This document shows positions 52,253 to 59,863 of a DNA stretch of 64,000 bases, piece after piece. How positions within the stretch are numbered: position 1 is the first letter of the stretch; every line of letters begins with the position of its first letter. The position numbers and the translations under genes are program-made. The stretch spans positions 62,001-126,000 of the forward strand of contig CAIVZR010000048.1 in NCBI GenBank assembly GCA_903910445.1. Reading direction: 5' to 3'. The notes below the pieces were generated by a model, which was given only the letters and a program-made list of their open reading frames with translations, did no database searches and was not told the DNA's origin. This stretch comes from an uncultured Bacteroidota bacterium. Lineage in GTDB: Bacteria > Bacteroidota > Bacteroidia > UKL13-3.

Positions 52253-52262
52253 AATTGAACCG

Positions 52263-52270
52263 CAAAAATA
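52263..52270 (-). promoter_or_regulatory. Possible -7 element for glyS
   Basis: Minus strand TATTTTTG followed by CGGTT matches TAnnTTTG, only 11 bases upstream of the ATG, which would give a very short leader. No -33 TTG. Confidence 0.4.
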
Positions 52271-52341
52271 ACATACTAAACCATTTATACTATTTATCCT
52301 TCATTTTTTGTTTATTTGCATAAACAGCTAATTATTATCAA

Positions 52342-53229
52342 ATGAGAAATTTCTTTCTATCTATCGGCATCCTTGGCGCAATGTTCATGAATGCACAAAC
52401 CTACTCCTTCACTAAAAGTACGGGTACTTATGCCAATCTTACTGGATCCACCATTTTAAATAATACGAACTGGGTTAGTTTCGAAACAGCCATCAAGCTG
52501 CCATTTGCCTTTAAATACTGGGGAGTAGCGCTTTCCGACTCGATTTATGTAGATGATTGGGGTAGTTTGAGTGTTGATAATTCATTTGGCGAAGAAATAA
52601 GTTTTATGTTCGAAGATTTGAATAGTAGAGGTGCGAGTAAATCACCAATTAGTTATGTGGTATCTGGTATTACCCCGAATCGAATTTTGAAAGTCGAGTT
52701 TAAAAATATCGGATTTGACGGGGACCTCCCTGGGTTAGTTGATTCGGCCAATGCGCAATGCTGGCTTTATGAAACCACAAATGTGATTGAATATCGATAT
52801 GGAACCGCTAGCGTAAAAGCAACCACCTGGACGGATGCAGGGGTATATGTTGGGATTTTCGATCCTTCATTTTTGAATTTTGTGAACCTAGAAGGAAACC
52901 CTGCAAGCCCATTGGTTAATACTACCGATATGAACACGTTTAATCCATTAACAACGCTTCCCGCTACAGGAACAATATACAAATTTACTCCTTCAGGAAC
53001 AGGCATTAACTCCCCTAAAATTAAATTTCAACAAGTTGGCAATACTATTATTTTTCCCAATACAATGATTGTCAATTCAGTGAAAATATTTAATGTGAAT
53101 GGCCAATTAATGTTGGATGTAAAAAGTATGGATTCAAATATTGACATTTCAACACTTATTCCAGGTGTTTATTTTATTTCCCTGCAAACCAATGAAGGAA
53201 CAATTACCGAAAAGGTAATTAGATATTAA
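52342..53229 (+). CDS. Secreted protein of unknown function with T9SS-type C-terminal sorting domain, paralogue 1
   Basis: The 295-residue protein has a Sec signal (NFFLSIGILGAMFMNAQ, cut after AQ), a beta-rich body with no family I recognise (SFTKSTGTYANLTGST, LNSRGASKSPISYVVSGITPNR, VNLEGNPASPLVNT), and a C-terminal stretch of about 75 residues typical of type A T9SS sorting domains (VKIFNVNGQLMLDVKS ... ISTLIPGVYFISLQTNEG, VIRY end). It should cross the inner membrane by Sec and the outer membrane by T9SS and be attached or released outside. The next gene is a close paralogue. Confidence 0.85.
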   Translation: MRNFFLSIGILGAMFMNAQTYSFTKSTGTYANLTGSTILNNTNWVSFETAIKLPFAFKYWGVALSDSIYVDDWGSLSVDNSFGEEISFMFEDLNSRGASKSPISYVVSGITPNRILKVEFKNIGFDGDLPGLVDSANAQCWLYETTNVIEYRYGTASVKATTWTDAGVYVGIFDPSFLNFVNLEGNPASPLVNTTDMNTFNPLTTLPATGTIYKFTPSGTGINSPKIKFQQVGNTIIFPNTMIVNSVKIFNVNGQLMLDVKSMDSNIDISTLIPGVYFISLQTNEGTITEKVIRY

Positions 53230-53274: not shown

Positions 53275-54168
53275 ATGAAAAATAAAAGTTTTATAGCTCA
53301 AAAGGCAATTATTATTGCCTTATTCGTTCTAACAAATTTTGCTGCAAGAGCGCAGTTCTATGCATATACAAAATCCACTGGAACTTATACAGAGTTAACT
53401 GGGGCTACCCAATTACTAAATGGCAACTGGAATGATTTCAGTGCGAGCTTTAAAACGCCGTTTACTTTTCGATACTTCTCCCTGAATATTTTCGATTCAA
53501 TTGAACTTACAGATTGGGCCGGGATTTATTTCAATAATATCAATAACGGCTTATTTGATATCTATAGTACCGATTTAAATAGCAGAGGAAATAATAAGTC
53601 ACCCATAAGCTATCTTTCTTCAGGTATTATGCCAAATCGAGTTTTAAAAATCCAATATAAGAATGCTGGTTTTATGGCCGATGCTCCGAGCTTTTCTGAT
53701 TCCGTTAATTTTCAACTATGGATCTATGAAACATCGAATATTATTGAATTTCGTTATGGCCCCAATCAAGTAAAATCAACTTCCTATAATGGAGATAATG
53801 GCCCTTATGTGCAAGTTGCCGACCCATTAAGCATTTCAACAAATTTTATTGTCTTAGAAGGAAATCCAGCAAGCCCGTCAGTTAGAACCTCTAACATTTC
53901 TAGTTCTACAACATTAACTGGATCTCCAGCTAATGGCACTATTTATCGCTTTGCCCCATCGCAGTTTCATACTGGAATAAATGATCATCAAAATCCCTTA
54001 GGTAACGTATCTTATATTGATAAGATTGTTATTTTTAATATGAGCGGACAAATTATTAAAAGTTATTCAGGCAATGAATCTGGCGATTTAAATTACCTTC
54101 CTTCAGGTATCTATATCATGCAAGCCTATACAGCCGAAGGCGTTGTAACTACTAAGTTTGCGCGGTAA
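53275..54168 (+). CDS. Secreted protein of unknown function with T9SS-type C-terminal sorting domain, paralogue 2
   Basis: The 297-residue protein has a signal peptide (about 1-27, ending RAQ) and closely matches the previous protein: YTKSTGTYTELTGAT, LNSRGNNKSPISYLSSGIMPNR, LEGNPASPSVRT. It ends in a T9SS-like tail (VIFNMSGQIIKSYSG, PSGIYIMQAYTAEGVVTTKFAR). The duplicated body of about 200 residues is the same fold family, not recognised. The two genes are 45 bases apart in tandem and may be co-transcribed. Confidence 0.85.
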   Translation: MKNKSFIAQKAIIIALFVLTNFAARAQFYAYTKSTGTYTELTGATQLLNGNWNDFSASFKTPFTFRYFSLNIFDSIELTDWAGIYFNNINNGLFDIYSTDLNSRGNNKSPISYLSSGIMPNRVLKIQYKNAGFMADAPSFSDSVNFQLWIYETSNIIEFRYGPNQVKSTSYNGDNGPYVQVADPLSISTNFIVLEGNPASPSVRTSNISSSTTLTGSPANGTIYRFAPSQFHTGINDHQNPLGNVSYIDKIVIFNMSGQIIKSYSGNESGDLNYLPSGIYIMQAYTAEGVVTTKFAR

Positions 54169-58596: not shown

Positions 58597-58670
58597 CTCA
58601 AAGCAATTTAGATGCTCAATTTTTATTAGCAATTGAATATTTTTTAATACACACATAACCTTAGTTGGCT

Positions 58671-58678
58671 TAGATTTG
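58671..58678 (+). promoter_or_regulatory. -7 element of a candidate small RNA
   Basis: TAGATTTG followed by CATTG is an exact TAnnTTTG match in the gap after the kinase-AraC gene. No protein start follows on this strand, only the hairpins described for the candidate RNA. A TTG at normal -33 distance is not present. Confidence 0.4.
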
Positions 58679-58683
58679 CATTG

Positions 58684-58766
58684 TTATGAAAACAAAGCTA
58701 TTGTCCCTATAGCTCACCTGCTAATGAAAAAAATTTGAGCCCTCTGATTATTCGGAGGGTTTTTTT
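58684..58766 (+). ncRNA. Candidate small RNA of about 80 bases
   Basis: From a predicted start near 58684 (about 6 bases after TAGATTTG) the transcript would contain a 6-bp hairpin (AGCTAT 58696-58701, ATAGCT 58709-58714, 7-base loop TGTCCCT), a single-stranded linker, and a terminator hairpin with a T-run. The only ORF is an 8-codon MKTKLLSL frame at 58686, whose stop lies in hairpin 1. No known family is recognised. It could instead be the 3' end of the upstream kinase-AraC mRNA. Confidence 0.4.
58740..58766 (+). terminator. Hairpin terminator after the kinase-AraC gene/candidate RNA
   Basis: CCCTCTGA (58740-58747) pairs with TCGGAGGG (58752-58759; one G-T) around TTAT, followed by seven T. 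Strong intrinsic terminator on the plus strand. Confidence 0.85.
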
Positions 58767-58812
58767 ACAAATGATAATTTTGAAATTTATAATGGGACTT
58801 AAATTGAAGCAC

Positions 58813-59079
58813 TCAGCATCCGCAAGCACGTAATTTAGTCACATAGCCTTTTCGATTTATTCGTTCAATAACATGTCCATCACTATTGAAGATATAAGTT
58901 TGAAAGAGTTTGCCATTTCTGTATTTTTCTACTTTAACTATATGCTTAGCCGAATCATAGTAAGTCCAAGCCCCGCTCTTTTTTCCATGCTTCATTTTTC
59001 CTTCTGCACTCGAATCAGATGGAGATGAAATGGCATATCCAAATAAGAACAAGAAGAAGAGAAGGAAGTTGAAGCGCAT
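58813..59079 (-). CDS. Small secreted protein with a MORN-like repeat
   Basis: The start chosen is the ATG at 59079 (88 residues), one base after the methyltransferase stop; a longer frame from 59094 would overlap it. The protein has a hydrophobic signal (MRFNFLLFFLFLFGYAISS) and a mature part with KMKHGKKSGAWTYYDSAKHIVKVEKYRNGKLF, which resembles a MORN-type repeat as found in toxin-antitoxin-system YwqK-like proteins (G-x-x-x-G-x-W-x-x-Y). The tail ends CGC. Function unknown. Overlap with the preceding gene suggests one transcript. Confidence 0.65.
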   Translation of the reverse strand: MRFNFLLFFLFLFGYAISSPSDSSAEGKMKHGKKSGAWTYYDSAKHIVKVEKYRNGKLFQTYIFNSDGHVIERINRKGYVTKLRACGC

Positions 59080-59080
59080 A

Positions 59081-59863
59081 TTATTTTCTGGCAATTAAAA
59101 AAATATCCCACGTTTTTTCAAGGCCTTCCTTTTGCAAGTAGAAATCCTTGGTGTCTATTTCAAGCGTTGCATCGTTTTTCTCCTTCAGTTGATCTCTCAT
59201 TAAGGTGGTTATCCAATTATATGGTTTGATAAGTAAAGAGGCCGGAAGTATTTTATGGATTCCCAAAATATCCCATTTCATTATTCGTCTAACCCATTTA
59301 CTATTTTCCTCATAATAGGTATTTACCTTTTCATTGCCTTGCAATCCTTGAAGTTCAAATCCAGCAGCTCCAAAAACAGAGTTTGCTTCGTTTCGCATCT
59401 CCTCAAAAGTCATCTCATGAATATGAAATGGGTTCCTAGCAATGCTCATTTTGGCATTCGGTGTTGTACATAAGAACACACCACCTGGCTTCAAAACCCG
59501 AAATACATCCTTTATGAATCCCGCTTGATCATGTATATGTTCAATAAACTGAAATGCCGTAACTACATCCATACTAGCATCTGGCAAATTTATTGGAGGA
59601 ACTACGCTCCTTACAAACTTCAAATTGCTTACTGCAGCATGTTGGCTGATATTGTCGTCTATTGTTTCTTGTGAATAGTCAACACCAGTAACCGATTTGG
59701 CATATTTTGCCATATCGCTGCTTCCATAGGCTGGTCCGCATCCAATATCAGCCACCTCCTTGTCAGTAATATAGTTGCGAGCGAATTCGTAAGCATAAAA
59801 ACAACGCTTAACGGTTACATTATTTGCCTCCTCAAAGGAAGGTCTCTCTCTGGTTCCAGCCAT
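59081..59863 (-). CDS. Class I SAM-dependent methyltransferase
   Basis: The 260-residue protein has SAM-binding motif I VADIGCGPAYGSSDMAKY (about 37-54), motif II VTGVDYSQETI, then DVVTAFQFIEHIHD and VLKPGGVFLCTTPN. This is the UbiE/SmtA-like Methyltransf_11 branch with unspecified substrate. In polysaccharide regions such enzymes methylate sugars or lipids, but none of the immediate neighbours points to a substrate. Its stop lies 1 base before the start of the small secreted protein gene. Confidence 0.85.
   Translation of the reverse strand: MAGTRERPSFEEANNVTVKRCFYAYEFARNYITDKEVADIGCGPAYGSSDMAKYAKSVTGVDYSQETIDDNISQHAAVSNLKFVRSVVPPINLPDASMDVVTAFQFIEHIHDQAGFIKDVFRVLKPGGVFLCTTPNAKMSIARNPFHIHEMTFEEMRNEANSVFGAAGFELQGLQGNEKVNTYYEENSKWVRRIMKWDILGIHKILPASLLIKPYNWITTLMRDQLKEKNDATLEIDTKDFYLQKEGLEKTWDIFLIARK

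Follow-up and report, generated by a model that had tools for sequence, protein, structure and literature searches.

Genes and features at the locus

The window analysed here is the whole 64,000-nucleotide stretch of contig CAIVZR010000048.1, from an uncultured Bacteroidota bacterium (genome G000). Within it, a short stretch is bounded by the stop codon of a gene for a 510-aa regulator on one side and, on the other, by a convergent gene of 93 codons, which is followed by a methyltransferase gene. According to the list of open reading frames, only opposite-strand genes lie downstream of the candidate RNA described below. A preliminary description had proposed a small RNA at this place, and the elements it named, namely the box TAGATTTG, the AGCTAT/ATAGCT pair, the terminator arms and a run of seven T, were all where it had put them when the sequence was read. 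The coordinates are collected in Table 1.

Table 1. Observed and predicted features at the candidate small RNA locus, in window coordinates
Feature	Position	Strand	Remarks
Upstream regulator gene, 510 aa	57064-58596	+	HisKA, HATPase_c, receiver and AraC-type HTH domains (Pfam); no sensor domain
AT-rich upstream block TTGAATATTTTTTAATACA	58633-58651	+	About −50 to −32; aligned and conserved, in this form or as a variant, in five of five genus genomes
−7 box TAGATTTG (TAnnTTTG) of a predicted sigma-A-type Bacteroidota promoter	58671-58678	+	Same place in five of five genomes
Predicted small RNA	58683-58766	+	About 80-84 nt; 5' end from the box position, 3' end from the terminator
6-bp hairpin, AGCTAT (58696-58701) / ATAGCT (58709-58714)	58696-58714	+	Folds in G000 and G003 only
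Unpaired element CTAATGAAAAAAA before the terminator	58721-58733	+	Conserved; T tract on the other strand for the convergent gene
Intrinsic terminator	58737-58766	+	Stem of at least 11 pairs in five of five genomes, with differing sequences
Convergent gene, small secreted-type protein	58813-59094	−	From the list of open reading frames; a neighbour, not part of the RNA

In each of the five genomes of the genus the regulator has a single close orthologue (100, 100, 77, 73 and 71% identity, this genome included), and the candidate RNA stretch lies directly behind it in every one. All five proteins share the same start, and the regulator is a cut-down hybrid two-component protein that has been kept as such in the genus. 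The remaining 59 of the 64 family genomes yielded no orthologue at E≤1e-100, and a scan of GTDB genomes returned the four other genus members and six more distant proteins. A regulator from Saprospiraceae (L027, 39%) was rejected as an orthologue, being a full-length protein of 1386 aa. The convergent protein had no Pfam match; it ends in CGC, its position is conserved in the genus, and by eye it contains what we take to be MORN/YwqK-like repeats.

Predicted promoter

The word TAnnTTTG is not evidence on its own: the window holds 61 matches on both strands, against 85.8 expected by chance, and the case is lifted above chance by conservation and not by the word. The distance from the TTG of the upstream block to TAnnTTTG, computed from positions, is 38, 38, 39, 38 and 38 bp in the five genomes, and the spacer between block and box varies in sequence among them. 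As judged from the aligned genomes, such a fixed distance across a drifting spacer is the mark of a promoter in DNA and not of an mRNA tail. In Bacteroidota promoters, a TTG is expected 17-23 bp upstream of TAnnTTTG. None is present there (about −33) in this genome or its near twin G003, which counts against a promoter. The block itself would be an UP-element-like sequence or an activator site.

The combination of block and box was specific to the locus. TTTTTTAATACA followed by TAnnTTTG 15-22 bases on had a single occurrence per genome in four of the five genomes, each time at this locus, and the reversed control gave none; the fifth genome, G004, carries a diverged block and is absent from this count. 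A degenerate 17-mer of the block gave eight matches in the five genomes, five of them at the locus, and none in its reversed control. The three extra matches were rejected as paralogous sites because they lie inside a long coding frame (G000 and G003) or in tandem repeats (G002), with no TAnnTTTG within 120 bases; no regulon was found with this 17-mer across the five genomes.

By eye, the block forms a perfect dyad in G002 (TGTATT-N6-AATACA), a partial one in G000, G003 and G001, and none in G004, where it has been lost. The dyad is possibly the site of a dimeric regulator.

Because the TAnnTTTG box has been mapped at −12 to −5 in Flavobacterium psychrophilum, according to the part of that report used here (PMC9723704), the 5' end is predicted near 58683, one base from the 58684 given in the preliminary description.

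Conservation within the genus

The five genus genomes represent four lineages, G003 being a near twin of G000. With G003 left out, the four lineages share 48 invariant columns, 17 of them in the best 30-column window. In 300 dinucleotide-shuffled sets the mean was 14.6 invariant columns (maximum 26), with a best 30-column window of 6.3 on average (maximum 11), and TAnnTTTG, which is aligned in all four lineages here, was so aligned in none of them. Between G000 and G003, positions 58630-58735 differ at 1 of 106 bases. The words concerned are common in AT-rich DNA, and the stretch might be unremarkable DNA of this kind that carries a terminator; with no shuffled set reaching the observed conservation, and with so few differences in the close pair, we regard chance as very improbable.

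Because shuffling destroys homology, real regions were added as controls. The DNA in front of the methyltransferase gene, with a TAnnTTTG box of its own (TATATTTG in G000, TATCTTTG in the others), was less conserved than the candidate stretch, with 23 invariant columns of 186 and no more than 10 in any 30. In three lineages, the DNA upstream of the regulator itself had 27 invariant columns of 105 and a best 30-column window of 16; for the last 100 bases of the small RNA region in the same lineages the values were 50 of 110 and 18, so that the gap between the best windows is small.

In the close pair, the adjoining non-coding DNA differs at 3 of 33 (58597-58629), 3 of 31 (58736-58766) and 5 of 46 positions (58767-58812), in total 11 of 110 (Fisher p 0.005), and the third codon positions of the regulator differ at 39 of 511 (p 0.008 against 1/106). 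One of four other intergenic stretches compared, 52253-52341 between divergent genes, has 0 differences in 89 bases and exceeds the rest of the nearby intergenic DNA in conservation, and conservation like that of 58630-58735 is therefore not unique among intergenic regions.

Body and terminator of the candidate RNA

The terminator arms CCCTCTGA (58740-58747) and TCGGAGGG (58752-58759) are followed by the seven T at 58760-58766, and RNA folding lengthens the stem to 11 pairs (58737-58747 / 58752-58762). A simple scan for terminators missed this one. For the 83-nt stretch the predicted folding energy is −22.1 kcal/mol, compared with a mean of −12.2 for shuffled sequences (z −3.82; 0 of 200 shuffles as good), a value owed mostly to the terminator. 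Three differences between G000 and G003 fall within it (58739, 58742 and 58754); by eye, they turn G-U into A-U, C-G into U-G and U-G into U-A, so that pairing is kept. Consensus folding gave one pair changed on both sides, and because its alignment misplaces the terminator arms, single folds were used.

The terminator is the only conserved fold of the candidate RNA. It had been suggested that two stems be sought in relatives, and the two fared differently: the terminator stem is kept in all five genomes, and in the single folds AGCTAT/ATAGCT forms only in G000 and its near twin, two of five, so that its role as a defining stem is not supported. The predicted folds of G001, G002 and G004 lack it, and G004 has a different hairpin. 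Within the body, the alignment places CTAATGAAAAA in four of the five genomes and CTTATGAAAAG in the fifth, G004. A long-range stem between the 3' region of the regulator and CTAATGAAAAA was dropped, as it was seen by eye in only two or three genomes, and the pattern of CTAATGAAAAA plus CC was uninformative, being as frequent in its reversed control.

Conservation is weaker in the body than in the promoter, as would be expected if the promoter were real and the transcript had no role as an RNA, selection acting on transcription against the convergent gene or on protection from its readthrough. The unit does point at that gene, and the predicted transcript overlaps the gene's probable 3' end at the terminator, which is probably used from both sides. 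We nevertheless consider this explanation quite unlikely, since the unit retains a strong terminator, which in this genome ends 46 bases short of the neighbour's coding region, and CTAATGAAAAA in the body is conserved.

Independent gene or 3' end of the regulator mRNA

No terminator was found by the terminator scan between the regulator stop codon and the predicted small RNA promoter, and for this reason the regulator mRNA probably ends at the same terminator as the candidate small RNA. The stretch could then be only the 3' untranslated end of that mRNA with its terminator, perhaps cut to a stable 3' fragment, and TAnnTTTG would be unused. The lack of an intervening terminator speaks for this, as do the terminator being the best conserved structure and TAnnTTTG alone not exceeding chance. 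It is at odds with a box and a block that hold their distance while the sequence between them drifts, and with the start of the 3' region, whose first 33 bases have diverged much more in the close pair (3/33 versus 1/106). On balance we judge it improbable.

The comparison instead points to an independent intergenic small RNA gene at about 58683-58766, from a sigma-A-type promoter to the shared terminator, which we consider the likely reading because the spacing-constrained promoter has only a terminator behind it. The alignment shows the predicted promoter, its spacing, the body element and the terminator kept at one place in all five genomes. The preliminary description had allowed for an RNA made on its own or for a processed 3' fragment, and had proposed checking whether the terminator alone is conserved. 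That check left the small RNA reading standing, as five of five genomes also keep the promoter, the upstream block and some of the body; this favours an RNA with its own promoter, a processed 3' fragment being the less likely product, and the regulator mRNA probably shares the 3' end.

The low coding capacity noted previously, not beyond 8 codons, agrees with the longest ATG frame inside the stretch, which has 8 codons. Such ATG frames (8 codons here, 14 in G002) could in principle encode a tiny peptide or a translated leader. The alignment revealed no open reading frame shared among the genus genomes: there is an in-frame TAG in this genome, no ATG at that place in G001, a frame of 4 codons in G004, and a 1-nt indel between G001 and G002. 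A short peptide was rejected on these grounds and is largely refuted; we give it almost no credence.

Distribution and comparison with known small RNAs

A sequence model of the candidate gave strong matches at the five genus loci only (74-100 bits); across the remaining 59 of the 64 genomes of the family the best score was 22.8 bits. The two best matches outside the genus (L043 and L044) lie inside coding frames and were taken as chance, as were L046 and L047, which were rescored to about 18 bits. Next to the methyltransferase gene in 11 other genera (L063-L073), only one weak piece came up (10 bits), and a weak DNA match in G029 covers 45 bases of the terminator part only. Thus, these searches gave no convincing relative of the candidate outside the genus. 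The earlier statement that no known family is matched agrees with Rfam 15: at the gathering cut-off only two tRNAs were found in the window and nothing in the four other genus loci, and the best sub-threshold scores of about 20-23 bits are all below cut-offs of 37 or more. The locus was not found in a narrow literature search, from which we make no claim about its absence from print.

The candidate is good but ordinary, and of a kind already known. As in intergenic small RNA genes, the comparison indicates a promoter of its own, an intrinsic terminator (stem in five of five genomes) and no conserved coding frame. It resembles GibS, an intergenic small RNA of 145 nt from Bacteroides thetaiotaomicron, in that, going by the portion of the GibS report used (PMC7366714), both have a promoter of their own (putative in the candidate) that is retained along with the gene across a single genus, an intergenic position, a largely unstructured body and a Rho-independent terminator. 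It differs from GibS in its length of about 80 nt and in its predicted promoter, which has TAnnTTTG, whereas GibS is said in the same portion to have a non-canonical motif (PMC7366714); the candidate is known from sequence alone, and no sequence relation is claimed. Like Rfp18 of F. psychrophilum, it would be a small RNA conserved in a genus of Bacteroidota with TAnnTTTG promoters, but Rfp18, as far as the consulted part of its description goes (PMC9723704), is strongly folded, and there is support for its involvement in protease expression. The same part of the GibS report counts 21 UTR-derived small RNA candidates, 5' and 3' together (PMC7366714). The present candidate is similar to 3'-end-derived small RNAs in lying directly after a coding gene and probably sharing its terminator, and is different from them in having a conserved putative promoter of its own.

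Proposed function

We propose that the box and the AT-rich block would together form a sigma-A-type promoter, the block helping RNA polymerase or binding an activator. The transcript would begin near 58683 and end at 58766. It would be a largely unstructured RNA that most likely works in trans, with its unpaired body, such as the conserved CUAAUGAAAAA, base-pairing with a target; the whole stretch would probably double as the 3' end of the regulator mRNA. Transcription, the 5' end, the base-pairing function and a trans target are what we infer from these features. Pairing with the translation start regions of neighbouring genes (the regulator, convergent, methyltransferase and valS genes, valS in G000 and G003 only) showed no consistent excess over shuffles, and the sole strong match was the trivial antisense one.

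More speculatively, the sensorless kinase-AraC regulator may bind the block at −50 to −32 and drive the RNA as its dedicated output, a module that we consider possible though doubtful. It would be in keeping with a block nearly unique to the locus and a promoter lacking the −33 TTG in this genome, and with the occurrence of regulator and RNA together in all five genus genomes, neither having been found in the other 59 family genomes. The promoter of the regulator gene itself does not carry the block, scoring 4.1 at best, versus 27-36 for the loci. If the regulator does drive the RNA, the locus would offer a rare example of a hybrid two-component-type regulator whose local output is a small RNA. 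To our knowledge, few small RNAs of Bacteroidota are known outside Bacteroides and Flavobacterium; the candidate was recovered by sequence comparison alone, in uncultured lineages that are freshwater ones as read from isolate names.

Elsewhere in the window, the adjoining genes at 52342-53229 and 53275-54168 encode clearly similar secreted-type proteins of 295 and 297 aa, apparently a tandem duplication.
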